39,129 bases of DNA from a virus, in IMG/VR virus record IMGVR_UViG_3300030085_003572, positions 1 through 39,129 of that record. The stretch is one strand, 5' to 3'. Positions 14,601 through 29,406 of this stretch are shown one piece after another (positions within the stretch are counted from its first letter, which is position 1; each line of letters starts with the position of its first letter). The notes beneath the pieces are model-generated. The model worked only from the letters and a program-made list of their open reading frames with translations. It did not search any database and was not told where the DNA came from. Both the position numbers and the translations under genes were made by a program.

Positions 14601-15247
14601 TACCGCCAAGCAGCGATAATTTATATTTAGATTATAGCCCAAGCATTAATGCTATCAAAAGTATTAGTGATGACGTAATATACCATCCGGTAAAATACAA
14701 ACCAATTTTAGGAAGCAAAAGTGACGTGGATTTACAAGCAACTATAAAAGTAGTTAAAAATACAGAACGTGTTGTAAATGATAATGATGTGAAAAGTAGA
14801 ATTATTGACGCTGTAAATTCTTTCTTTGCTTTAGAAAATTGGGATTTTGGTGAAACATTTTACTTTAGTGAACTAGCAACTTATATCATTAATCAATTAT
14901 CACCAGATGTTGTAAGTATTGTGTTGGTTCCAAAACAAGAGACACAAAGTTTTGGTAGTTTATACGAAATCAAAAGTGAAAACGATGAAATACTTATTAG
15001 CAGTGCAACAGTTGATGATGTAGAAATTATTGATGCAATTACTCAATCAAGACTGAAAGCATCTGGACTTGTTGTAACAAGTGATGATATATTAAATGTT
15101 GGAGTACAAAGTTCAGCAAATTCATCTACTGGATATACATTTGATACTTCATCAAGTCCAAATCCAAGTTCAGCTGCTCCTAGTGGATCTGGTGGATCCG
15201 GAGTAAGCGGAGGAGGTAGTTCCGGCGGTGGAGGCTACAGTTACTAA
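11693..15247 (+). CDS. 6: gp6 baseplate wedge protein, enlarged
   Basis: A 1184-residue protein; T4 gp6 has 660. The N-terminus has the gp6 signature: FKYADFQSYDFDNLRRTMINYIRQNYPEDFNDYIESSEYLALIDLIAFLGQNIAFRADLNARENYIETAERRESVLRLARLVSYN (broken here only by spelling, residues about 22-107). The C-terminal third (about 1000-1110) contains the J-like wedge segment with VDLQATIKVVKNTERV and DFGETFYFSELATYIINQL. The extra length lies mainly in the middle as beta-rich modules. The last 30 residues are a Gly/Ser run ending GGGGYSY. gp6 forms the inner ring of the baseplate and joins wedges together. The ATG at 11693 is preferred over 11686 because AAGGA sits 7 bases upstream. Its TAA overlaps the next ATG by one base. 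Confidence 0.88.
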   Translation: MSSTERQNRLLLAEDWKTVYQSFKYADFQSYDFDNLRRTMINYIRQNYPEDFNDYIESSEYLALIDLIAFLGQNIAFRADLNARENYIETAERRESVLRLARLVSYNTKRNQTANGLLKFESVATTEDVIDSNGTNLSGQTVIWNDSTNADWYEQFIKILNSALPTDAKFGKSIKKETIDSVLTEQYRLNAQTGTGLPIYSFTKNVDSITTQFEIVSTAIDNEKIYEEEPLAGNRLAFLYRDDGQGAGSNNSGFFLHFRQGRLENNVVTVNNPTPNTTINIDTDNINNSDVWLYKLDSNSLESELWTKVDNVEGNNIIYNSISKSVRNIYGVLSRVQDRISLIFSDGTFGTLPKGTFKVYYRTSNARQYKIVPSDMTGITISIPYTSAAGKIETLSITMELKSVIDNSSPAETNASIKTNAPSTYYTQNRLITGEDYNVGTLGINQNIVKTKAVNRTSSGISRYFDLRDASGKYSNTLLYSDDGILYTEDVNNKYSFDFVTRNDIESAVNNVITPAIKDTKLLNFYYKNFPRNTSVKALGFSWKFETFDTNRSTGYFIDLVNNVPVAVSSFTKSIMRFVTPGALIKFDAPTNYYFLPNGDLALGSASTAGSATYKWVKVVSIEDNGTVVNAETGLGPIVLNDKIPDTAVLAEIIPVLDTSITDAVKTQIIDQAFAYKTFGLRYDFEASQWRVIIANNLDTRNDFSLGKTGDSTNTQSDNSWLLLFETDGQKYTITARGRRYVFESNDQIRFFFDSTNKIYDSKSGTIVQDVIKVLSINTQPDALNPFTVDWPWQITKEYKNDAGYVNSKKIEISFFDSDSDGVVDDPDLFDHIVAPETNTNTKYIYQKKSTVNKTETFNYVDANKEPIYTKTSQGAVGALSQYNDGDVFYLIDRDVFLKFNKTANQLEFTSDYLAFLGRTDIKFEYSHAADEQARIDPSSSNIIDVYLLTKSYDNDYRDYIKGNVSMKPLPPSSDNLYLDYSPSINAIKSISDDVIYHPVKYKPILGSKSDVDLQATIKVVKNTERVVNDNDVKSRIIDAVNSFFALENWDFGETFYFSELATYIINQLSPDVVSIVLVPKQETQSFGSLYEIKSENDEILISSATVDDVEIIDAITQSRLKASGLVVTSDDILNVGVQSSANSSTGYTFDTSSSPNPSSAAPSGSGGSGVSGGGSSGGGGYSY

Positions 15248-18200
15248 TGGCATACAATGATGATCAAAACGAATTTCCGTTACCAGCAGGAAAAAATCCT
15301 AAAAGAAGTAGTGTAGAACAATTACCTAGATTTTTTAGAACACCTCAAAACAAAAAGTTTTTAAGCAGCACATTAGATCAATTAACCAATCCTGGTGTAA
15401 TTGAAAAAATCAATGGGTTTGTAGGAAAACGTGAAGCCAAAGCTGCAACAATAGAAGACAATTATGTTGAAGACATTTCTAAATCAAGAAATGATTATCA
15501 GTTTGAGCCAGTAAGTGTTTACGAAGATTTTTTAGGTAGTACAAAATATTACAGCGATTATAACGATTATATTGGCTTGCTAAAAACATATAATGCAAAT
15601 ACAGATAATCACAGTGCGTTGAATGAACAAGAATATTATGCCTGGAATCCAAATATTAATTTAGATAAATTTGCTAACTTCAGAGAATATTATTGGTTAC
15701 CTAATGGTCCACAGGAAGTTGCAATCAAAGGGCAAAGCAAAGAAGTTATAAGCACTTATAGACTTGAAGTATTAGAACAAGATAACGATATTAGTTTATT
15801 GTTTCATCCAGATGGATTAACAAAAAATCCTACACTAAATTTGTACAGAGGACAAACTTATAGATTTGAAATAAACGCACCAGGCAATCCTTTGAGTATT
15901 GCACTTTATAGAGGTGTTGATCCTAACGAACTTTTAGATGATAGTTCAATTTTGAATCAAACATATACCGAAGGTGTAACATTAATACCTGACACTGATG
16001 ATGTTTTGCTTAACCAAGACGATTTTGTTGCAGAAGATTATATAGAAAAAGGTATATTAGAATTCACTATACCAGATAATGCTCCAGATACACTTTACTT
16101 TATAAGCCAATATGATTTGAATATTAGTTCAAGATTACAAATTTCAAATATTGATGCTGCAAGTAAAATAGATGTTGAAAATGAAATACTTGATAAGAAA
16201 ACATACACAACATCGGATGGATGGGCTCTTAGCAATGGAATGAAAGTGTATTTTATAGGTGATGTTACACCAGCAAAATATGCAGAAGGTATTTGGTATG
16301 TAGAAGGTGTAGGCGATGAGATACGTCTTATTGCAGCAGAAGATTTACAAGTTCCTGCAATATTCACTAATGATAGTATTGTGCCATTTGATAAAAATGG
16401 TTTTGACAGAGTACCCTATGGCAATGCAAAAAGTTTTGCCGGCACCAAAGATTATATTGTAGTTAACAAATCAAGTCCAGATCGAAATCCTTGGGCACGT
16501 TATAACAGATGGTTCCATAAAGATGTTGTAACAAAAAGTGCTGAACTAAACGGACAAAGTTTTGACTTACCAGAAGAAAATCGTGCAAAGCGTCCTATTA
16601 TTGAATTTGATACAGGACTTAAATTATTTAACTTTGGTGCTAAAGCAAAAGATAATATCGATTTGATTGACACATATACAAATGATGTAAAATCAAAAAT
16701 TGAAGGACAACCAGGATACAGTGTAGATGGTGTAGAACTTTCAAATGGTATGCGTGTTATGTTTGTAAACGATACTGATAGTTTTGTTTATGGAAAAGTA
16801 TTTGAAGTTAAGTTTTTTGACTTTAAGGGCAATAGACAAATATCATTAGTTGAAACAACTGATACAATGCCAGCAGAAAATGAAACTGTGCTTGTTAAAG
16901 ATGGTAATGCAAATGCAGGTGCAATGTATTGGTACGACGGAACAACTTGGAAAAAAGCACAAGAAAAAACAGGTGTAAACCAAGCACCGTTGTTTGATTT
17001 ATGCGATGCTGAAGGAAATAGTTTCAGTGATACAATTACATATCCTGCCAGCGATTTTAAAGGTTGTAGAATTTTCAATTATGCTGTAGGTGAAGGTTCA
17101 AATGATGCCGAAATAGGATTTCCATTAACATATAAAAATATTAACAATACTGGAGATATTGTTTTTGACTTTAGTTTGTTAAAAGACAAGTTTACATACG
17201 AAGTAAGTAATCAAGTTTTTACTGTTGACACTTCAACAGGTTTCTTAAAAAAGTACGGACATATAGGAGATACTTTAGAATACGTAAACGGCTGGGTAAA
17301 AGCACCTACAATGAGCAAACAATACATTGTAAGAAAATTTACAGGACAAGAACGCACAAATAATTTTGTCATTGATGTTTACAAAGAAAGTGGATATATA
17401 AATGATTTGAAAGTAATTGTTTATGTAAACAATGAAGTCAAAACTGAAGGTGTAGATTTTAATTTTGCAATAGATTCAAATTACGACAAGCGTGTACAAT
17501 TTTTTAAAGATTTAGATGTAAATGATATACTCATTATAAAAGCACATTCTAAGACTGCAACAAAAACAAGTGTAGGTTATTATGAAACACCACATAACTT
17601 TGAAAGAAATCCACTTAATGAAGATATTACACAATTTACATTAGGAGAAGTTAGTGATCACGTAGACAGTGTTGCAGAAGAAGTTCCAAACTTTGTAGGT
17701 AAACAACCAGGTGCTAATAATTTACGTGACTTAGGAAATGTTAAAAAATATGGACGCAAGTTCGTACAACACAGCGGACCAATTAATTTACCCTTGTTTA
17801 GCATTAGCAACAAAGAAAATAATTTGATTGCTGCTATAAATTTTGCAAAAAATGAATACAGCAAATTTAAAAGAGCTTTTGTACAAGAAGCAGAAAACTT
17901 AGACTTATCTGGTTCAATCAAAGAACAAGTTGATACAGTATTATTAAGTTTAGTAAAAGATAAAAAATCTTCAATGCCTTTCTATCAAACAGATATGTTA
18001 GGTATTGGTGCAAACAAAAAAATAACACATACTGTGTTAGATACTGATATTAAATTTTATGCTTTAAGTGCGCCTTTCACTTTAACAGTGTTAAGTGAGA
18101 AAGCTGTAAATGTATATGTGAATGGAACACAAGTTTGTCATAATTTAGATTACACTTTTACAACAGAAGGCTTTGTGCAATTCGACACTGATTTCAATTT

Positions 18201-21200
18201 AGCAGTTGATGATGTTATTGAAATATATGAATACGAAACAACAAACGGTAGTTATATTCCACAGACACCAACAAAATTAGGATTATTTCCTGCATACAAA
18301 CCTGAGGTATTTGTTGATACAACTTATCAAGAAAATCAAACTGTAATTAGAGGACACGATGGAAGTATTATTATTGGTTATCAAGATTACAGAGACGACT
18401 TGTTGCTTGAATTTGAAAAAAGAGTGTACAATAATTTAAAAGTGCCTTATGATAGTAGTATTTTTGATGTATATGATTATATAAGCGGTGAATACAGAAA
18501 CAGCAAAGTATCAACTAAAGATTTAAACAGAATACTAATCAGTGATTTTGTAAACTGGTTAACAAAAGCTGGTAATGCTGACTATACAGAAAATACATTT
18601 GTTCAAGAAGCAGCAACTTTTACATATAACTATGGTTTTGGTAGCAGCAAAAACAATAAACCACTAGCAGGATTTTGGCGTGGTATCTATGTAAATGCAT
18701 ATGACACTGACAGTCCTAATTTACGTCCTTGGGAAATGTTAGGGTTTGCTGTTCAACCTACTTGGTGGGAAAGCAAGTACGGCCCTGCTCCATACACAAG
18801 TGATAATAAAGTTTTGTGGGAAGATTTAGAAAAGGGTATTATAAGATCTTCAGACTTAATACGTACAGATAAAAGATTTATACGTCCTGGTTTGACAAAA
18901 CATATTCCTGTAGATCAAAGTGGAAATATTCTTAGTCCTCTTGACAGCGGATATGTAAACGAATTTAGTTTTGGTGTACAAAATGGACAGCCTTTTAAAT
19001 TTGGTGATCACACACCAGCAGAAACTGCTTGGAGACGCAGCAGCGAATATCCGTTTGCTTTATTAAAAGCAATTATGATTAATAGACCAGCTCAAATTTT
19101 AGGTGTTGGTTTTGATAGATCAAGAATGAGTAGAAACTTAGTTGGACAACTTGTGTACAACGGTGTTACAAGCGAGCGTATAAAATTATCTAATCTTCTG
19201 TTTACAAACACAATAGTAAATGAACAAAATATTTTAACCGCAGGCTTTAACAATTACATATACGACTATATGTCTAGCGATATTACAACTCAGTACAGCA
19301 ACTTTACCACTAAGCTTAGAAACTTGAAACAAAAAATTGCTTTCAAACTTGGTGGTTTTGCAGACAAAGAAAAATTAAAACTTGTACTTGATAGTAAAAA
19401 TCCTAGTAACAAAGGAAATGTTTTTGTTCCTTTTGAAAATTATAAAATAGACTTAATACAAAGTTCGCCTCTTACAACTGTAACATACAGTGGCGTGATA
19501 ATTGAAAAGCGTTCTAATGGATTTAAGATAAGTGGATACGATAAAGAAAATCCAGTTTTTACATATAGTACACCTGTGTTATCGAGTAATGACATTAGTA
19601 TTAATGTAGGTGGCATAAGTGAAAGCTTTTTAAACTGGACTGAAGACAAACAATACATTGCAGGAAAGATTGTTAGATATGAAAACACATTTTATAGAGT
19701 AAATGTAAGTCATACAACAACAGAAGTTTTTGATAATAGTTTTTATACACCATTACGTGACTTACCAATTATTGGCGGCGCTTCTGCTACACTTAGAAAA
19801 AATTTCAGCAATATAACTGCTACATTAGATTATGGAACGGTTTTATCTACTGCTCAAGAAGTTGTAGACTTTATACAAGGATATGAAGATTATTTAAAAA
19901 AGCAAGGATTTGTTTTTGATTATTTCAACAAAGAAACCGAGGCTGTAGAAAACTGGACTTTAAGTATAAAAGAATTTTTATTTTATACAACACAAAATTG
20001 GGCAGTTGGTACAATCATAACATTAAGTCCATCTGCTAATAGTCTTAATTTTAGCAAAGACTATTTTGTAATAGATAATGTGCAAGAAAATATTTTTAAT
20101 TATAAAATATTAAATTTAGATGGTACTGCTGTTAAAGATATTAGTATTAGTATAAGTAGAGATGCTGGAAACAGTGTTGAAATACTACCTGCTAGTGGCG
20201 ACAGTGCAATTTACTTTGCAAAACTAGGCCTAATACAAAAAGATCACAGTGTAGTCATTGATAACAGCACAGTGTTTAATGATACAATATATAATCCTTC
20301 AAGTGGTTATAGACAAGAGCGTATAAAAGTTGTAGGATATAGAACAGACAATTGGAATGGTAATTTAGATATTCCAGGCTTCATTTATGATCAAGCAAAT
20401 ATAACTGAATGGGAACAATGGCAAGATTATGCACTTGGTGATCTAGTTAAGTATAAAGAATTTTATTATTCTGCAAATACATTTATTAGCGGACAATCTG
20501 TATTTGATAGTAGTCAATGGAATAGATTAGATGGAAAACCACAGAGCGGCTTGAAAACTAACTTTGATTATAAAGTAAATCAATTTGCTGACTTTTATGA
20601 TTTAGATACAGATAACTTTGACAGCGAACAACAGCGTTTAGCACAACATTTGATTGGTTATCAAAAGAGAGAATACTTAGATAATATAATAGAAGATGAT
20701 ATAAGTCAATATAAATTTTATCAAGGCTTTATACAAGAAAAAGGTACATTAAACAGTTTAACTAAATTCTTTGATAAACTAGGAAGTGCCGATCAAGAAA
20801 GTTTAGAGTTTTATGAAGAATGGGCAATAAGAAATGCACAGTATGGTGCTACTGATACGTTTGATGAATTAGAATATAAATTAGATGAAACTAAATTTAG
20901 AATAGAGCCTCAAATTATTGAATTAGTAGATGCTGTTAATAATAACAGAACAGATTTAGTATATGAAATTCCAGAATCAAAAGTTTATATCAAACCACAA
21001 GGTTACACAAAAACTCCATTTCCAAAAAAATACAGCACAGAAGAGTTTGCAAAAACTGCTGGATATGTTAGTTTAGATCAAGTTGATTTTCTTGCAAAAA
21101 CTCCAGATGATATTTTAGAATTAGATATTTCTAATGTTGCAGTTGACGACATAATTTGGGTTACATCAGAAAGAAATAGTTGGAACATTTATCAACATAT

Positions 21201-24200
21201 TACAATACCAAACAGAGTAGAAACATATACAAAAACTTCAACAGGATTTGATTTAAGATTTGATTCTATACCTGACCTTCAAGTAGGCGAAATATTTGGT
21301 GTGCAATTTGTAAATGATCTAGTTGATGGTTTTTATAAAGTAAGCAGTATTTCTAGCACACTTGTAAGTGTTGTTGCAGACATTACATATCCAGAGGAAA
21401 GTTTAGATTTAAGAGATAGCACTGCTGGCATTGTTACAAAATTATTATCAAAGCGTTATGATACTCCTACTAGTGTAAATGCAGACATTAATAAATTTGG
21501 GCTGAATGAAAACAACACTATCTGGATAGACAACGTAGCAAATGATAAGTTTGGTGTGTTTAAAAACAACAAAATTTTTAACAAAAAACAAGAATTATTC
21601 AACGTTGAAAGCGGAGATGGCGGTTTTGCAAGTAGTTTTGCAGTTAACGATGTTAACAGCATTTTTGCAGTTGGTAGACCTGATGATGAAAAAGTGTTTA
21701 TATACACTAGATCAAGCGAATCGCAAGATTTAAATTTTATACAAGAAATTGAAATGACTCCAGGCTTCCACGATAATGCTAGTGGGTTTGGTCAAAAAAT
21801 AAAGTTTTCAAATGACGGACAGTTTATGTTTGTTGCAGCACCACTTGCTAACAATGTAAAAACAAGATACAGAGGAGAAGCTGAATCAACATTTAACATT
21901 GTGAAGGATGATATTGTAAGCGATAGAGGTACTTTATGGAGAGCAAAAAGAGCCACCGACGATGATAGCAGTAGTATTAACACAAACAGCAGAGATTGGG
22001 AACAAGTTTACAAAATACCTGCAGATGATGAGGGCTACGTAAGCGGATTAAACAATCAAGGTTGTGTTTATGTTTACAAAAAACAACTAGATAACACTTA
22101 TTTTTTACTTGAACAATTTGTTTCAAATGAACCTACAGCAGACGAAAAATTTGGTATTGGTTTAGAAAGTGCATTTACAACAGACGAAACATATAAACTT
22201 TATGTTCGCAGCGAAGGCAATAACGGCAGAGTATATATGTTTGATACTACTTTTGCTCAAATGGAATTCAGAGGAACAATTGATCCTACATTTAGAGGTG
22301 ACTGGGACAACTTTCATTCTTATGTTACAGGGGCTATTGTACAAGAAGAAGGTCAATTGTACAAGGCAAAAGTTGACATTCCAAAAGGTGGCAACGGTCC
22401 TACTGACATAGCATTATGGGAAAGCATTGATGTAAATATTGACCGTTTTGGATATTTGCCATATGCAAGTACAATACAAGGTGACACTGATAGCACAGCA
22501 TTTAACAATACAACCAGTGCTGGTAAAAATATTGGTGTAAGCACAAATGGAGAAGTGCTATCTTTCACAGCGTTCAACAATTCAACAAATGAATTCCAAG
22601 TTAATGTTTATAGATTGCAAGAGGGTAGATATGCTTTCTATGAAGCAATAACATCTCCTAGCACTAATGTTTCTTGGGGTGCAAGTGTAGCACTAAGTGA
22701 TGATGGAAGTTATATCGCAGTAGGTGCTAATTTAGAAGATATAGTAACAACAGATGATTTAGGCATTGACAAAGGTATTGTTTACATATACAAATACAAC
22801 ACTAGTACTCAACAGTTTGAAAATACACAAACATTGCAAGCACCTGCTGCAACTAAAAATGAAAGATTTGGTTATAAAGTTGAATTTAGTAACAACAAAC
22901 TTTGTGTTATAGGTGTTAATGGACTTAATATTGGTAGCACATTATTTGACACAAATGAAACTACATTTGATAATAATTCTACAAAGTTATACGACTTTTC
23001 AACAAGAAGACCGCAAGCTTATACATATGAACTTTTAAACGATATCTATACAGTCAGCGAAGTTATAGATTACGAATCGTATTATGTAGACAACGGTTTA
23101 ACATTGCAAAGAGATTTAGCGTCTGCTAATGATGTTGAAGTAGTTTATCAAAATAATCATTTGTATTTAGGTTTTGACGGATTAGATACAGGTGATAGCA
23201 AGTTTGGTTTAATTTTTGATTTACGTCACGATAGAGATGTAACAAATTGGAATACACTAGGAGCAGCAACAGATTTTATTGATTATGAAAAAATGCGTGG
23301 TGCATTTTTATATGATAGTGTTACAAGTGATTTAATCACATATATAGATATTATTGATCCAATTCAAGGAAAAATTGCAAATGCTGCTGAAAGAGAAATA
23401 AATTATAAATTATATTACGATCCAGCAGTTTATAATATAGGAAACACAGACACAGGTATTGTCAATCCTTGGGGAGAAGAACGTGTAGGAGAACTTCTTT
23501 GGGATCTGAATGCAGTTAAGTGGTACAATCCTTATCAAAAAAATAGTGATTATAGTAGTAATACTTGGAATAAAATTATACCAGGATATACAATTGATAT
23601 TTACGAATGGGTATCAAGCACATTATTACCAGACGAATGGGACGCTGTGGCAGATACTACTGAAGGATTAGCAGATGGTATTAGTGGTTCTACAAGATAC
23701 GGTAACACACGTTATGTAAGAAAAAATGTTTATGATCCTGTAAGTGGATTGTTTTCTGCAAAGTATTATTATTGGGTAAAGAATACTAAAGTTTTACCTG
23801 CTGTTGAAAATAGAAATATCACTGCTGCTGCTGTTGCATCTCTTATTGAAGATCCTGCAGGAAACGGTTATAGATTCTTAGCAATGTTTGGTGCTGATAA
23901 TTTTGCTGTTTACAATTGCACTAATTTAATTAAAGATACTGATACTGTTTTACACTTTGAATATTACAACACAGATGAAGTTAAAATTAATAACTTGCAC
24001 AGGGAGTACAATTTATTAACCGAAGGGCTATCTACAAGTCAACCAAACGACAGACTAGTAGGTAAATGGATTGATAGTTTAGTTGGATATGATGAACAAA
24101 GAACATTGTTACCTGTTACTACTTTGAGTGTAGCAAGACGTTATGGTATTTTAGATGATCCATTACAAACTATGTTTGTAAACAAAACTGAAGCACTGAA

Positions 24201-27200
24201 GCAAGTAATTGAAAGAATAAATCTTGTATTACGCAAAAAACTCATTGTTGATGAATTTGATATTAGTGGATTGTCTGCAAAAGATCCACAACCTACAACA
24301 GTCTCAAGAGAATTTGATACTACTGTAGATGATCAAACTCTTTTAAGGTTTATTGGTACAAGTAAAATACAACAAGCTACATTGAGTGTAGATATTGTTG
24401 ATGGTAGATTAACAAATATTACAATTACCAATCCAGGTAGAGGATATATTGATCCTGCATACAACAGCTCAACTGATACTAAACGTAGAGGACCAAAAGT
24501 TACTATTACAGGTTCTGGTATGGGTGCAGAAATAGAAACATATATTAATAATTTAGGACAAGTTATTGAAGCAAATATTGTAAATGAAGGAAAGAATTAT
24601 AATCCAGCAACAACTACTGTTACTGTAAGACCTTTTACTGCACTTATAAAAACAGATACAACATTATTAGGATTTTGGGCAACATATATTTGGAACGCTA
24701 CTGAAAAAGAATGGGTGCGTATAAACAATCAAAATTACGATGCAAGTTTGTACTGGAAATATATTGATTGGTACGCAGAAGGATTTAGCAAAGAAACAAG
24801 TATTGATTATTTGGTTCCTGGTAGTTATGCATTAGGTGGTTTAGAAGACAACCTTGGTGATATTGTTAAAATTGAAAGTATTGGTTCCGGCGGTTGGTTG
24901 CTATTAAGAAAAATAGACAATCAGTTAGAAGTTGATTATACAGTAAATTATGAAACAATTGGTAGACAAAATGGCACAATTGAGTTTAGTAGTTTATTAT
25001 ACAACAACGATAGATTTGGTTTTGATAAAGCAGTTTATGATAGTGCTTTATATGACAGAGATGCTGGAGAAGAAGTTAGAATAATTTTACAAACAATAAA
25101 CAAATCTATATTCGTTGATGAACTCAAAGTAGAATGGAATAAATTATTCTTTAGTAGTGTACGTTATGCACTTGCAGAACAACCTAATATTGATTGGATA
25201 TTCAAAACAGCATTTGTAAAAGCAAAACACAATGTTGGATCATTAGAACAAAAAACAACATATAAGAGTGATAGTTTAGAAAGTTATAATCAATATGTTG
25301 CTGAAGTAAAACCTTACAGTACAAAGATTAGAGAATTCTTAAGTGCATATGAAAATATTGATCCAACTGCAACAAATGTAACTGACTTTGATTTACCTCC
25401 ACGTTACGATTTGAACGCACAAAAAATTGTTTCAGAGACTGCTAATGTTGTTGATAGCAAAATTAGAAACTATAGTGAATTTGTTACAACATATCCACAA
25501 CGTAATTGGTTTGATAATGTTGGCTTTGAAGTTAAAGAAGTTGTACTCACAGACGGCGGCAGCGGATGGACAAATGCACCTAGAGTAGTTATGAGTGGAG
25601 GCGGTGGTCCAACAGTGATTGGTTCTACTACTATTAACGAAGGCAGAGTTACAGGTATAGTAATTGACTTTGCAAACTTAAAATATATTACAGCTCCTAA
25701 TATAACTTTTGAAGGAGATCAAGGAAACGTTTCAACATCAACAGTCCAATTTAATGTCACTGTTGCAAGTGGCACGAATACCTATGGTGCAGGTAACAAA
25801 TATTATATCCAAGGATATGCAGATGTAAGTCCTATACTTACGTTGTTAGAAGGCCAAACTTATAGATTCGACCAGAGTGATCCTTCTAATGCAACCCATC
25901 AACTATTAATTTCAACTACTGCAAACGGTACTTGGGACGGCGGAGTAGAATACACAACTGGTGTTACCAAAGTAGGTACAGCAGGTAGTCCAGGTGCATA
26001 TACAGAAATTACTGTTCCAACTGGTGCTCCAACACTATACTATTACTGTATTAATCATAGTGGAATGGGAGGACAAGCAAATACAACAGCAGGCACACAG
26101 CAAAATTATAGTACTACAATTAAGCCAGCTAGAGCAACTGCTATTATCGGTAATGGTCCAGTAAGAGCAACTCATATGTTGATAAAGTTTGATCGTGTAG
26201 CAGGTGCTTATGTTGTTACTGATTTAGATGTTACACAGAATTTTACAGGCACAGGTTCTCAAGTTGATTATATTCTAAAATGGCCAATCAATGTAAAACC
26301 TGCAAATACAAAAATTACTGTAAATGGTGTTGAACAACTATCAAATGATTACACAGTAACAAATGTAAAAGATACAACTGCTAGTTATCCAAGATATTAT
26401 GGTAAAATTACTTTTACAAACGCACCTGCAATTAATGATGCAATTGTAATTGAATACGACAAAGATATTGATTACTTAACTGCATCTGATAGAATAAACT
26501 TTTTCTATAATCCAACCTCAGGACAATTTGGTAAAGATTTAGGACAGTTAATGGATGGTGTAGACTACGGAGGTGTTCAAATAGACACTGCTAGTTTTGG
26601 CGCATCACAGGGATTTAACAACGGTGATTTCTTTGGATCAACACCATTTGATAGATTTAGCACAAACAACGAAGATGAAGTTTTTATACTTGATGGTAGC
26701 ACACAATCTATTACTGTAAGCAAACCATTTGAAGCTGGAATAAAATACAATGTATATTTCAAAGCAAGCACAGCAGGCGTTGACGTAGATCCAACTAGAA
26801 TTGACAGTGAAGATTTTGGTACAGCTGAAGCACCCGAAACTGCTACAATGTTAACTATTGTTGGTGATGGTATTACAAGCACATTTATAATAGACGAAGA
26901 TTTACTTGTTACTAGAGATGGTGACACTATTATTGTTAGAAAAGAAACTAGCGATGGTGCAGTTACACCTAGTGGTGTTATTTTTGATACACAAATAAGC
27001 GGTGGGGATTTAACTAATGTAGCAGGACAATTTAGCACAGCAACAGGTATTGATGCAGCAAATATTGTTATTGACGGCGATGATTTTGTATCACCTACTA
27101 CAAGTAAAGGCACAGAAGAAAATGTACCAGGACAGATTTTAGATACACTTGACTTACAAGTTTTTGAACGTGTGAGTGACGGACAAGGTGCAATTACTGT

Positions 27201-29406
27201 ACAAAATTTCCAAACAGATGGTGTTAGTGCAGAATATTATATTGAAAGTTTACCTTCAAACGAAGATAGTGTAATTGTAAAATTAGACAACGTTGTTTTA
27301 GATACTTCACAGTATGAAATTGATTATGCTGAAAACGTATTAAGAATTAGCGATAGTAGTTTATTACCAGTAGGCAAGCATCTTTCACTATTGACAATTG
27401 GTACAAATGGGTCTAATATTATAGAAAGTGATACTTTTACTGGTGATGGAAGAACCAACAATTTTGTAACTTATTATAAGTTCGAACAAAACGTCACAGC
27501 AGTAGTTAGTGTAAATGGTGTAATTAGCACAACATTTGGATTAGATGCATCTGGACCAGAATATGGTGATAATGCAAATAAAATTATGATTGTGTTTGGA
27601 GAAACGCCTCCGGCAAATAGTATTATTACGTACACACTTTACAAAGGTTCAGGAAAACAATACAGTCAACTTGCTATTGATGATACATTTAACAGAACAG
27701 TAACTACAAACAGATCACACACGTTTGGTGTAAATGGCGCAGTGCCGTTACCATTTAACAAAAAACCATTTAGTCATAATATTTTAGTTAAAGTTGGAGA
27801 CGATTTCTTAGATGCAGGTTACGTAAAAAAACATACTTTGACAACTGCAAGAACTTATGAAATTGATAACTGGCAGTTTATTGACCAAACATTAATTAAA
27901 CAAAGCGATGTACTAATTTATATCAATGATCAAATAGTTGATCCAGTTAATTATGTGTTTAGCACTATTGATGGAAGAATTGAATTAACCACTAGAGAAG
28001 TAGGTAAAAGCGGAGATATAATGCGTGTTTACTTATTAAACGATAGTCAATACTTTTTTGTAGACACTGTGGTGAAATTAACAAATGCAGCAACTTTGTT
28101 TGAGTATGCTCCATTAGAAAAAATAAACTTTGAGCTTAATGACAGCACTAGTGTGATAGCAACTGTGCAAGAATACACAAAGTCTGGATCAGAAGTAACC
28201 ATCAAATTACAAGGATACGTTAGAGATTTAGTGTTACTTGCAGATAAAGATGACACACCTAGTTTGTGGGCAGATGATAGTACACAATTTAAAATAGATA
28301 GTATTAATATTGTTGAAAGTGATAGATTAAGTCTTAAGGATATTCCTAACGATGATGTAAAAATATATGTATTTTCTAATCACGACACAAATGAGTTTGA
28401 AAGACTTAGTTTACGTGTTGCCTATGAAGATGAAAATGCTCCTGCAGGTTCAGATAATTATCTTTCAAGAAATTTATTAAGCAAAGGCGAAATAAAACTT
28501 GATAAGAAAATACCGGGTCCAGAATATGCTTGGGTATTTTTAAATGGTAAATTTTTAACTTCGCAAGCAGATTATACACTGTCTGATAATAGAGAATATA
28601 TTATTCTAAGTGAACAGCCAATAAAAGATGATAGAATTGAAATACTTTATTTCACAGCAGATGTAAGTAAGAAAAAATTTGCATATAGAATTTTCAAAGA
28701 TGTGTTAAACAGATATCATTACAAACGCATTAATAGTGCAATGGAATATGAACTTGCAACTGATTTAAATTGGTATGATTTATCTATAAATCTAAAAAGT
28801 TCAGATGGATTAGACGAACCAAATCGAGAACTTGCTATACCTGGAATAATTTTTATTAATGGCGAAAGAATAGAATATTTTATCAAACAAGGAAATATTT
28901 TAAGACAATTAAGAAGAGGAACATTAGGTACTGGTGTAAAAGACGTGCATCCAAGACACAGTAGAGTATTCCATCAAGGTGTGAGTGAAACTATACCGTA
29001 TCAAGATACAACATACACACAAACATTCACAGGTGACGGTAGTTCAACAACATTTAACCTTAACTGGACACCAAATAGTGTAAACGAGTTTGATGTTTTT
29101 GTTGCTGGAACTAGATTAAGAAAAGCCACTCCAATTGTTAATGCTAATGATGGTATTGACTATAATTATTATGAGTACGATAGCACTTTAGATCAAGATA
29201 GTCCAGGAGGAGATGTAGTAGTTCCAGCAGAATTTACTGTTGAAAATAACATTTTAACACTAGTTACTGCACCTCTTGCTGATACAGAAGTAAGAATAAT
29301 TAGAAAAACTGGTAAAATTTGGAATGACGATGGAGTAAGTCTTGCAAGTAGTAAAAATACTATAAGCAGATTCCTAACAGATAGCACATATAAGCTCGCC
29401 CGATAA
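15247..29406 (+). CDS. Giant multidomain baseplate/fibre protein (4719 residues)
   Basis: One uninterrupted frame of 14.16 kb. It starts on the gene 6 stop (TAATG), the position of gene 7 in T4. The N-terminus (SSVEQLPRFFRTPQNKKFL, then VIEKINGFVGKREAKA) matches, from memory, large structural proteins of marine T4-like phages. Modules I can see: a degenerate cupredoxin-like fold (about 188-300); short VNG-type beta modules near 718, 950, 3684, 4008, 4221, 4426 and 4610; carbohydrate-binding-like W/Y modules near 1462-1507, 1719-1765, 2219-2256 and 2345-2395; FG-GAP-like propeller repeats (about 2101-2564); two G-x-G-x-x-x-x-P beta domains (about 3047-3130 and 3427-3500); and a cupredoxin-like domain with intact ligand pattern (about 3520-3615). 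No membrane segment or protease motif is seen. It probably joins the wedge to peripheral host-contact modules. That role is inference; virion location is well supported by context. Confidence 0.85.
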   Translation: MAYNDDQNEFPLPAGKNPKRSSVEQLPRFFRTPQNKKFLSSTLDQLTNPGVIEKINGFVGKREAKAATIEDNYVEDISKSRNDYQFEPVSVYEDFLGSTKYYSDYNDYIGLLKTYNANTDNHSALNEQEYYAWNPNINLDKFANFREYYWLPNGPQEVAIKGQSKEVISTYRLEVLEQDNDISLLFHPDGLTKNPTLNLYRGQTYRFEINAPGNPLSIALYRGVDPNELLDDSSILNQTYTEGVTLIPDTDDVLLNQDDFVAEDYIEKGILEFTIPDNAPDTLYFISQYDLNISSRLQISNIDAASKIDVENEILDKKTYTTSDGWALSNGMKVYFIGDVTPAKYAEGIWYVEGVGDEIRLIAAEDLQVPAIFTNDSIVPFDKNGFDRVPYGNAKSFAGTKDYIVVNKSSPDRNPWARYNRWFHKDVVTKSAELNGQSFDLPEENRAKRPIIEFDTGLKLFNFGAKAKDNIDLIDTYTNDVKSKIEGQPGYSVDGVELSNGMRVMFVNDTDSFVYGKVFEVKFFDFKGNRQISLVETTDTMPAENETVLVKDGNANAGAMYWYDGTTWKKAQEKTGVNQAPLFDLCDAEGNSFSDTITYPASDFKGCRIFNYAVGEGSNDAEIGFPLTYKNINNTGDIVFDFSLLKDKFTYEVSNQVFTVDTSTGFLKKYGHIGDTLEYVNGWVKAPTMSKQYIVRKFTGQERTNNFVIDVYKESGYINDLKVIVYVNNEVKTEGVDFNFAIDSNYDKRVQFFKDLDVNDILIIKAHSKTATKTSVGYYETPHNFERNPLNEDITQFTLGEVSDHVDSVAEEVPNFVGKQPGANNLRDLGNVKKYGRKFVQHSGPINLPLFSISNKENNLIAAINFAKNEYSKFKRAFVQEAENLDLSGSIKEQVDTVLLSLVKDKKSSMPFYQTDMLGIGANKKITHTVLDTDIKFYALSAPFTLTVLSEKAVNVYVNGTQVCHNLDYTFTTEGFVQFDTDFNLAVDDVIEIYEYETTNGSYIPQTPTKLGLFPAYKPEVFVDTTYQENQTVIRGHDGSIIIGYQDYRDDLLLEFEKRVYNNLKVPYDSSIFDVYDYISGEYRNSKVSTKDLNRILISDFVNWLTKAGNADYTENTFVQEAATFTYNYGFGSSKNNKPLAGFWRGIYVNAYDTDSPNLRPWEMLGFAVQPTWWESKYGPAPYTSDNKVLWEDLEKGIIRSSDLIRTDKRFIRPGLTKHIPVDQSGNILSPLDSGYVNEFSFGVQNGQPFKFGDHTPAETAWRRSSEYPFALLKAIMINRPAQILGVGFDRSRMSRNLVGQLVYNGVTSERIKLSNLLFTNTIVNEQNILTAGFNNYIYDYMSSDITTQYSNFTTKLRNLKQKIAFKLGGFADKEKLKLVLDSKNPSNKGNVFVPFENYKIDLIQSSPLTTVTYSGVIIEKRSNGFKISGYDKENPVFTYSTPVLSSNDISINVGGISESFLNWTEDKQYIAGKIVRYENTFYRVNVSHTTTEVFDNSFYTPLRDLPIIGGASATLRKNFSNITATLDYGTVLSTAQEVVDFIQGYEDYLKKQGFVFDYFNKETEAVENWTLSIKEFLFYTTQNWAVGTIITLSPSANSLNFSKDYFVIDNVQENIFNYKILNLDGTAVKDISISISRDAGNSVEILPASGDSAIYFAKLGLIQKDHSVVIDNSTVFNDTIYNPSSGYRQERIKVVGYRTDNWNGNLDIPGFIYDQANITEWEQWQDYALGDLVKYKEFYYSANTFISGQSVFDSSQWNRLDGKPQSGLKTNFDYKVNQFADFYDLDTDNFDSEQQRLAQHLIGYQKREYLDNIIEDDISQYKFYQGFIQEKGTLNSLTKFFDKLGSADQESLEFYEEWAIRNAQYGATDTFDELEYKLDETKFRIEPQIIELVDAVNNNRTDLVYEIPESKVYIKPQGYTKTPFPKKYSTEEFAKTAGYVSLDQVDFLAKTPDDILELDISNVAVDDIIWVTSERNSWNIYQHITIPNRVETYTKTSTGFDLRFDSIPDLQVGEIFGVQFVNDLVDGFYKVSSISSTLVSVVADITYPEESLDLRDSTAGIVTKLLSKRYDTPTSVNADINKFGLNENNTIWIDNVANDKFGVFKNNKIFNKKQELFNVESGDGGFASSFAVNDVNSIFAVGRPDDEKVFIYTRSSESQDLNFIQEIEMTPGFHDNASGFGQKIKFSNDGQFMFVAAPLANNVKTRYRGEAESTFNIVKDDIVSDRGTLWRAKRATDDDSSSINTNSRDWEQVYKIPADDEGYVSGLNNQGCVYVYKKQLDNTYFLLEQFVSNEPTADEKFGIGLESAFTTDETYKLYVRSEGNNGRVYMFDTTFAQMEFRGTIDPTFRGDWDNFHSYVTGAIVQEEGQLYKAKVDIPKGGNGPTDIALWESIDVNIDRFGYLPYASTIQGDTDSTAFNNTTSAGKNIGVSTNGEVLSFTAFNNSTNEFQVNVYRLQEGRYAFYEAITSPSTNVSWGASVALSDDGSYIAVGANLEDIVTTDDLGIDKGIVYIYKYNTSTQQFENTQTLQAPAATKNERFGYKVEFSNNKLCVIGVNGLNIGSTLFDTNETTFDNNSTKLYDFSTRRPQAYTYELLNDIYTVSEVIDYESYYVDNGLTLQRDLASANDVEVVYQNNHLYLGFDGLDTGDSKFGLIFDLRHDRDVTNWNTLGAATDFIDYEKMRGAFLYDSVTSDLITYIDIIDPIQGKIANAAEREINYKLYYDPAVYNIGNTDTGIVNPWGEERVGELLWDLNAVKWYNPYQKNSDYSSNTWNKIIPGYTIDIYEWVSSTLLPDEWDAVADTTEGLADGISGSTRYGNTRYVRKNVYDPVSGLFSAKYYYWVKNTKVLPAVENRNITAAAVASLIEDPAGNGYRFLAMFGADNFAVYNCTNLIKDTDTVLHFEYYNTDEVKINNLHREYNLLTEGLSTSQPNDRLVGKWIDSLVGYDEQRTLLPVTTLSVARRYGILDDPLQTMFVNKTEALKQVIERINLVLRKKLIVDEFDISGLSAKDPQPTTVSREFDTTVDDQTLLRFIGTSKIQQATLSVDIVDGRLTNITITNPGRGYIDPAYNSSTDTKRRGPKVTITGSGMGAEIETYINNLGQVIEANIVNEGKNYNPATTTVTVRPFTALIKTDTTLLGFWATYIWNATEKEWVRINNQNYDASLYWKYIDWYAEGFSKETSIDYLVPGSYALGGLEDNLGDIVKIESIGSGGWLLLRKIDNQLEVDYTVNYETIGRQNGTIEFSSLLYNNDRFGFDKAVYDSALYDRDAGEEVRIILQTINKSIFVDELKVEWNKLFFSSVRYALAEQPNIDWIFKTAFVKAKHNVGSLEQKTTYKSDSLESYNQYVAEVKPYSTKIREFLSAYENIDPTATNVTDFDLPPRYDLNAQKIVSETANVVDSKIRNYSEFVTTYPQRNWFDNVGFEVKEVVLTDGGSGWTNAPRVVMSGGGGPTVIGSTTINEGRVTGIVIDFANLKYITAPNITFEGDQGNVSTSTVQFNVTVASGTNTYGAGNKYYIQGYADVSPILTLLEGQTYRFDQSDPSNATHQLLISTTANGTWDGGVEYTTGVTKVGTAGSPGAYTEITVPTGAPTLYYYCINHSGMGGQANTTAGTQQNYSTTIKPARATAIIGNGPVRATHMLIKFDRVAGAYVVTDLDVTQNFTGTGSQVDYILKWPINVKPANTKITVNGVEQLSNDYTVTNVKDTTASYPRYYGKITFTNAPAINDAIVIEYDKDIDYLTASDRINFFYNPTSGQFGKDLGQLMDGVDYGGVQIDTASFGASQGFNNGDFFGSTPFDRFSTNNEDEVFILDGSTQSITVSKPFEAGIKYNVYFKASTAGVDVDPTRIDSEDFGTAEAPETATMLTIVGDGITSTFIIDEDLLVTRDGDTIIVRKETSDGAVTPSGVIFDTQISGGDLTNVAGQFSTATGIDAANIVIDGDDFVSPTTSKGTEENVPGQILDTLDLQVFERVSDGQGAITVQNFQTDGVSAEYYIESLPSNEDSVIVKLDNVVLDTSQYEIDYAENVLRISDSSLLPVGKHLSLLTIGTNGSNIIESDTFTGDGRTNNFVTYYKFEQNVTAVVSVNGVISTTFGLDASGPEYGDNANKIMIVFGETPPANSIITYTLYKGSGKQYSQLAIDDTFNRTVTTNRSHTFGVNGAVPLPFNKKPFSHNILVKVGDDFLDAGYVKKHTLTTARTYEIDNWQFIDQTLIKQSDVLIYINDQIVDPVNYVFSTIDGRIELTTREVGKSGDIMRVYLLNDSQYFFVDTVVKLTNAATLFEYAPLEKINFELNDSTSVIATVQEYTKSGSEVTIKLQGYVRDLVLLADKDDTPSLWADDSTQFKIDSINIVESDRLSLKDIPNDDVKIYVFSNHDTNEFERLSLRVAYEDENAPAGSDNYLSRNLLSKGEIKLDKKIPGPEYAWVFLNGKFLTSQADYTLSDNREYIILSEQPIKDDRIEILYFTADVSKKKFAYRIFKDVLNRYHYKRINSAMEYELATDLNWYDLSINLKSSDGLDEPNRELAIPGIIFINGERIEYFIKQGNILRQLRRGTLGTGVKDVHPRHSRVFHQGVSETIPYQDTTYTQTFTGDGSSTTFNLNWTPNSVNEFDVFVAGTRLRKATPIVNANDGIDYNYYEYDSTLDQDSPGGDVVVPAEFTVENNILTLVTAPLADTEVRIIRKTGKIWNDDGVSLASSKNTISRFLTDSTYKLAR
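15805..16146 (+). other. Degenerate cupredoxin-like domain in the giant protein
   Basis: Residues about 188-300 follow the same order as the later cupredoxin-like domain: TLNLYRGQTYRFEI, then YTEGVTLIP, then LEFTIPDNAPDTLYFIS. Where the later copy has Cys, His and Met, this one reads FISQYDLN, so a copper site is absent. The fold relation is inferred from the shared GQTYRF and P-(x)-APDTLYF pattern. Confidence 0.5.
21547..22938 (+). other. FG-GAP-like beta-propeller repeats with inserted binding-like modules
   Basis: Residues about 2101-2564 of the giant protein hold at least six repeats of the form FG-x-x-(V/I)-x-(F/L)-S-x-D-(G/N)-x-x-(F/I)-x-(V/A), for example SGFGQKIKFSNDGQFMFVAAP, WGASVALSDDGSYIAVGA and NERFGYKVEFSNNKLCVIGV. 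Two short W/Y modules resembling chitin/cellulose-binding CBM5/12 units (about 2219-2256 and 2345-2395) interrupt them. Confidence 0.55.
25804..26091 (+). other. Cupredoxin-like domain with type-1 copper ligand pattern
   Basis: Within the giant protein, LTLLEGQTYRFDQSDPSNATH leads to H3551. The domain closes with TLYYYCINHSGMGG, giving C3601, H3604 and M3607. His plus C-x2-H-x2-M is the ligand set and loop spacing of amicyanin-type blue copper proteins. The fold call rests on motif order; metal binding is untested. Confidence 0.55.

Follow-up and report, generated by a model that had tools for sequence, protein, structure and literature searches.

A new cupredoxin-like and probably copper-binding domain family in the tail proteins of marine phages

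The described proteins closest to the domain reported here are amicyanin and plastocyanin (PF00127), together with the cupredoxin domains of copper nitrite reductase and the T1 domain of laccase and CueO, which are its nearest solved folds. In laccases, the T1 His sits in a His-Pro motif. Plastocyanin (petE) is moreover an auxiliary metabolic gene of cyanophages. For phage tails themselves, the Ferrojan Horse hypothesis proposes that iron in T4-type tail fibres acts via a metal receptor. Iron-binding HxH motifs have been described in the tail fibres of marine phages (PMC11705849). Titles and abstracts of the open journal literature yielded no report of a cupredoxin or copper domain in a phage tail or virion. 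We are aware of no earlier description of a blue-copper site in phage particles. Here we describe a domain of marine phage tails that we assign to a new cupredoxin-like family, probably able to bind copper.

The window, which is the whole 39,129-nucleotide stretch of viral DNA analysed here (IMG/VR record IMGVR_UViG_3300030085_003572), encodes on its plus strand a giant virion protein of 4719 aa (15247..29406) matching phrog_10938 'virion structural protein' at E=0. Genes for gp25-like, gp5-like hub/lysozyme and gp6-like wedge proteins precede it and tail fibre genes follow, a setting that corresponds to the baseplate and tail module of T4-like phages and puts the giant protein at the gp7 position. 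In phage P-HM2, a 4458-aa frame annotated as gp7, the baseplate wedge initiator, likewise contains the domain. The window protein possesses CBM_5_12 carbohydrate-binding modules above the Pfam cut-off (residues 1463-1491 and one further stretch) and a weak FG-GAP match (residues 2474-2515), and thus looks adhesive. Its composition includes 7 Cys, 36 His and 29 Met.

The putative metal ligands in this protein are H3551 (25897..25899, plus strand) and a C3601-x2-H3604-x2-M3607 loop of sequence CINHSGM (26047..26067, plus strand), with the codons of C3601, H3604 and M3607 at 26047-26049, 26056-26058 and 26065-26067, all in frame. H3551 aligns with the first His of plastocyanin and amicyanin, and the loop with the C-x2-H of plastocyanin, nitrite reductase and amicyanin. 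The C-x2-H-x2-M pattern occurs once in the 4719 residues, against 0.0003 occurrences expected from composition, and its Cys is one of only seven. The preliminary description had proposed these four residues as a possible blue-copper site on a phage tail; its residue numbers and frame are exact, and the gene neighbourhood bears out the baseplate or tail location. The interval it gave, 25804-26091, encloses the motif, but the real unit is bigger, an insertion of 126 residues.

This insertion (residues 3494-3619; 25726..26103, plus strand) has no counterpart in close orthologues of the giant protein. Orthologues with flanks 62%–93% identical lack the domain; the seven further orthologues compared at this site are all without it. 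G005 (flanks 93% and 89% identical) reads FEGDQG-EYST-NKPARA, and the window reads FEGDQG-[126 residues]-NYSTTIKPARA. Aligned in this way, the domain is a precise 126-residue cassette, gained or lost as a unit. Its closest relative elsewhere, among the best 80 of 455 related stretches in viral contigs, is 77% identical and lies in a 1476-aa frame of another contig. Given the seven orthologues without the domain and this relative in a different frame, we favour its acquisition by domain transfer into the giant protein. Since closely related phages do without the insert, it is not essential in them.

Within the cassette, a cupredoxin-like beta-sandwich domain (25747..26097, plus strand) was delimited by AlphaFold2, its Foldseek neighbours and an alignment of 34 family members. 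The AlphaFold2 model based on this alignment is a beta-sandwich with a pLDDT of 94.2 and a pTM of 0.86, in which H51 (H3551) lies just before a strand, C101 (C3601) at a strand end, and H104 and M107 (H3604 and M3607) in the next loop. Nearly all of the best 50 Foldseek matches in the PDB are laccases, CueO, three-domain nitrite reductase, AcoP and amicyanin, at E values of 0.008-0.05, TM-scores of at most 0.58 and probabilities up to 1.00; no PDB match reached E 0.001 or better. As modelled, the family is near the known cupredoxins, yet distinct from them, and the cupredoxin fold and metal site of the domain are supported, not proven. The model also matches the fold of small 'beta-sandwich proteins' of Pithovirus and Marseillevirus (BFVD A0A481Z6J5 and A0A481YVH3; E 8e-6 and 6e-5), so giant viruses, too, may possess cupredoxin-like proteins.

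The domain is common in marine phages. Besides the 455 stretches in viral contigs, the best 80 of which were carried forward, 266 cultured-phage records match at E 1e-3, from phages of Synechococcus, Prochlorococcus, Pelagibacter and Methylophilales; the hosts thus include cyanobacteria. Its carriers are tail fibres and proteins resembling gp7 or gp9; in phage PSS2 it makes up a small protein by itself. It falls inside several tail families of PHROGs, and none of the libraries searched, PHROGs among them, names it. In the 34-sequence viral alignment, H51, C101, H104 and M107 are invariant (34/34), and their His and Cys codons vary synonymously between CAT and CAC and between TGT and TGC. The motif is therefore not a chance occurrence, because the four positions persist in 34 relatives despite varying codons. 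A further set of 16 divergent copies, 27%–55% identical to the first row of their alignment, retains nine invariant columns, four of which are the ligands. Among 162 metal-type copies, the axial Met is kept in 160, the remaining two having a loop one residue longer, and 155 possess a single Cys, which led us to reject a disulphide role for the ligand Cys. The first His is followed by Pro in 134 of the 162, by Gln in the window, and by Pro, Gln or Gly across the family.

In cyanomyoviruses, gp9, the tail-fibre connector of the baseplate wedge, ends in a second subfamily of the domain, as seen in most of the rows sampled from 350 cyanophage-type records (loci L273, 553-1785; L274-L278; L280-L359). 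The N-terminus of cyanophage gp9 matches the T4 gp9/gp10 N-terminal family. Across 64 distinct cyanophage gp9 sequences, the four ligands are invariant (64/64), and the ligand Cys is the sole Cys in 61. One gp9 sequence alone matches nitrite reductase at E 0.005, and the gp9 domain alone matches amicyanin and nitrite reductase over most of its length at E 0.1-1.6. With a length of about 410 aa and mostly a single cysteine, gp9 is cheap to test and a better experimental target than the window's own copy.

The ligands are kept or lost together. Of the first His and the Cys, which lie about 50 residues from each other, 161 of 182 full-length copies have both and 20 have neither, whereas 1 retains only the His and none only the Cys. 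After clustering at 60% identity, the corresponding counts are 24, 9, 1 and 0 (Fisher P 2e-7), and at 50% identity the association still gives P 0.002. A tree of the copies implies about seven changes of state (up to 7), at least three of them required by branches with good support, and the two ligands change together; a sign test on the supported independent losses, only 3 pairs, gives P 0.25. Such joint keeping and loss is what a shared metal predicts. Ligand-less copies with the family framework include the PSS2 protein (Y-Y-Y-A-V-G-T-A-A-M), L248 (G-N-P-F ... Q-A-S-N-Q-A-G-M) and, among others, a second copy near the N-terminus of the giant protein itself (about residues 169-300; 15751..16146, plus strand). 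The latter was found by hmmsearch with the family profile at a conditional E of 4.7e-8, has I/L-S-gap-gap in the ligand columns and is conserved in orthologues. Its AlphaFold2 model is of low confidence (pLDDT 55), and this copy was left out of the fold claims; judged by its residues, it is a natural, presumably metal-free control.

At the sequence level, searches of PDB, Pfam and NCBIfam with the window domain alone yielded nothing useful, and the amicyanin model TIGR02657 gave no match to it at the NCBIfam equivalog cut-off. With a broad family profile, plastocyanin, pseudoazurin and nitrite reductase came up under the threshold, their ligands in register, and Pfam Copper-bind (PF00127) scored 13-17 bits against a cut-off of 21.2 bits. 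For a direct comparison by hhalign we used five cupredoxins: amicyanin, plastocyanin 1pcs and pseudoazurin 1paz, the sequences of which were confirmed against their PDB entries, and the poplar and Anabaena plastocyanins. The alignment places ligand on ligand with a P of 8.5e-6, or 1.2e-6 with bacterial members added, and scores 37-41 against a maximum of 16-19 over 200 column shuffles. Upon masking of the ligand columns, the score drops to 15-17, level with the top of the shuffles. The profile signal thus sits largely in the ligands, and masked hhalign against the five cupredoxins did not establish kinship outside the ligand columns. In addition, all five references have H-N at the first ligand, which is absent from the window domain with its H-Q. 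Of the amicyanin likeness suggested at the outset, the Cys-His-Met loop spacing stands and membership is not supported, given scores below the Pfam and NCBIfam cut-offs and the lack of Asn after the first His. The more general claim of a type-1-copper-like ligand set, here in a cupredoxin-like beta-sandwich, is supported by AlphaFold2 and Foldseek, by the in-register profile alignment, and by the linked conservation and loss. We also considered kinship to Ig domains from weak antibody matches and rejected it; in the alignments inspected, these matches end on a Y-Y-C stretch, whereas the family conserves metal ligands.

Outside phages, the family was detected at E 1e-5 in 11 of 296 Bacteroidota genomes, and the loci read have all four ligands except L159 and L082. 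Three proteins of 166-168 aa (L187, L188 and L191) consist of a lipoprotein-like signal sequence and the domain. These stand-alone copies look like ordinary secreted cupredoxins, and such lipoproteins may be the source of the phage domain. For a further Bacteroidota copy, L185, the match to Pfam PF25489 (At5g54830-like domain), at E 1.4e-5, falls barely short of the cut-off and makes a link to this plant protein domain possible. Contig NZ_RMVE01000006.1 (188 kb; filed as Nonlabens xiamenensis, G001; L082, L159 and L160) encodes phage structural proteins and tail fibres besides a 7352-aa frame, and resembles a T4-like phage that was either co-assembled with the bacterial genome or contaminates it. 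Given this gene content, L082, the one bacterial-genome match of the first scan, was discarded as evidence for a bacterial host, and the other Bacteroidota loci stay as such.

These data enable us to propose a putative role for the domain. Residues 3494-3619 would constitute a portable cupredoxin-like domain with about 110 residues of beta-sandwich, in which H3551, C3601 and H3604 together with the axial M3607 would form a type-1 copper site. It appears to have entered the giant baseplate protein at the gp7 position in one piece; its relatives lie in tail fibres, in gp7-like proteins and, as a constant element, at the gp9 C-terminus of cyanomyoviruses. Initially, virions would assemble with the domain metal-free and reduced in the host cytoplasm, which is nearly devoid of free copper. 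Upon release into host debris and sea water, each domain would take up one copper ion. The bound copper would then rigidify an exposed baseplate or fibre module for docking to the host surface, the joint between fibre and baseplate, or both. Copies that dropped this role would have lost the ligands together and persist as plain beta-sandwich spacers. We consider this explanation as a whole the probable one. In its parts, a conserved metal-type site of the cupredoxin kind is highly likely, and it is fairly probable that the metal is copper and that it stiffens the domain as an exposed part of the tail that serves for docking or as a joint.

A metal-free Ig-like or carbohydrate-binding beta-sandwich with an incidental motif might be supposed from the Ig and CBM entries among the weak matches and from the copies without ligands; however, it gives no reason for ligand invariance over copies 30%–40% identical, nor for the concerted loss of residues 50 apart, and the non-ligand columns F32 and G63 are still conserved in the ligand-less copies. 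This reading is very improbable. As to the identity of the metal, Zn, Hg and Ag can be taken up by cupredoxin sites in vitro, and the four residues might instead hold Zn, Ni or Fe, or the Cys might have a chemistry of its own. Against this stand the one Cys, two His and one Met at such spacing, a classic soft, copper-selective set, the copper proteins that are its fold neighbours, and, for the Cys, the single-Cys copies that make a disulphide unlikely; we regard another metal or a separate Cys chemistry as improbable.

Two further alternatives retain the metal and differ in its use. The tail-bound metal might be presented to a metal receptor of the outer membrane, in a form of piracy or of Trojan entry. 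This would accord with the presence of the domain in baseplate and fibre proteins and its accessory insertion in the window, as well as with the iron-binding fibres of marine phages (PMC11705849). However, such entry is unlikely, because no host receptor has been identified and the fixed place in gp9, a connector and not a tip protein, fits receptor binding poorly. Moreover, type-1 copper is generally bound tightly and released slowly. Alternatively, copper might cycle between Cu(I) and Cu(II), sensing or swapping electrons with the host surface, for instance as a baseplate trigger. The near-constant axial Met, which mainly tunes redox potential, and the cyanobacterial hosts would suit such a role, but no partner enzyme is known, the gp9 and fibre positions point to a structural function, and no sequence feature shows electron transfer, so that redox activity appears quite unlikely. 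We retain a copper-stiffened docking or joint module as the preferred reading.

The commonness of the domain in marine phages and the absence of the insertion from close orthologues go beyond what had been described before. So widespread a module suggests that many ocean phage particles may carry copper. Whether type-1 copper is a virion component of most marine T4-like cyanophages, as well as of many pelagiphages and related phages, through gp9, which joins the long tail fibres to the baseplate, and through portable fibre or wedge copies, with copper binding as part of tail stabilising or host engagement, is to us an evenly balanced question. If so, some of the sea's commonest viruses would have a metalloprotein among their core baseplate proteins; copper might then be needed for tail assembly or adsorption, and in sea water the phage particles would bind it.

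In comparison with the known systems, the phage domain is reminiscent of amicyanin and plastocyanin in its ligand order of His ... Cys-x2-His ... Met and in its modelled beta-sandwich, with a His preceding a middle strand and the loop of Cys, His and Met joining the last two strands; the short loop spacing is shared with amicyanin. It differs in being sub-threshold in sequence, in having Pro, Gln or Gly after the His in place of their Asn, and in forming part of large virion proteins, whereas amicyanin and plastocyanin are soluble electron carriers. The C-x2-H-x2-M of nitrite reductase 9cck is the same as that of the phage domain, and the laccase His-Pro resembles the His-Pro of the phage family; unlike nitrite reductase, laccase and CueO, however, the phage domain is single, without trinuclear or type-2 copper residues and without an enzyme context. 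Cyanophage petE is a blue copper protein encoded by marine phages, but it is a host-derived soluble photosynthesis protein, whereas the tail domain is a virion part of a separate family. With the HxH tail fibres (T4 gp37; Alteromonas phage R22Y, PMC11705849), the domain shares a putative metal site on a phage tail protein, and it differs from them in fold, ligands and probably metal.
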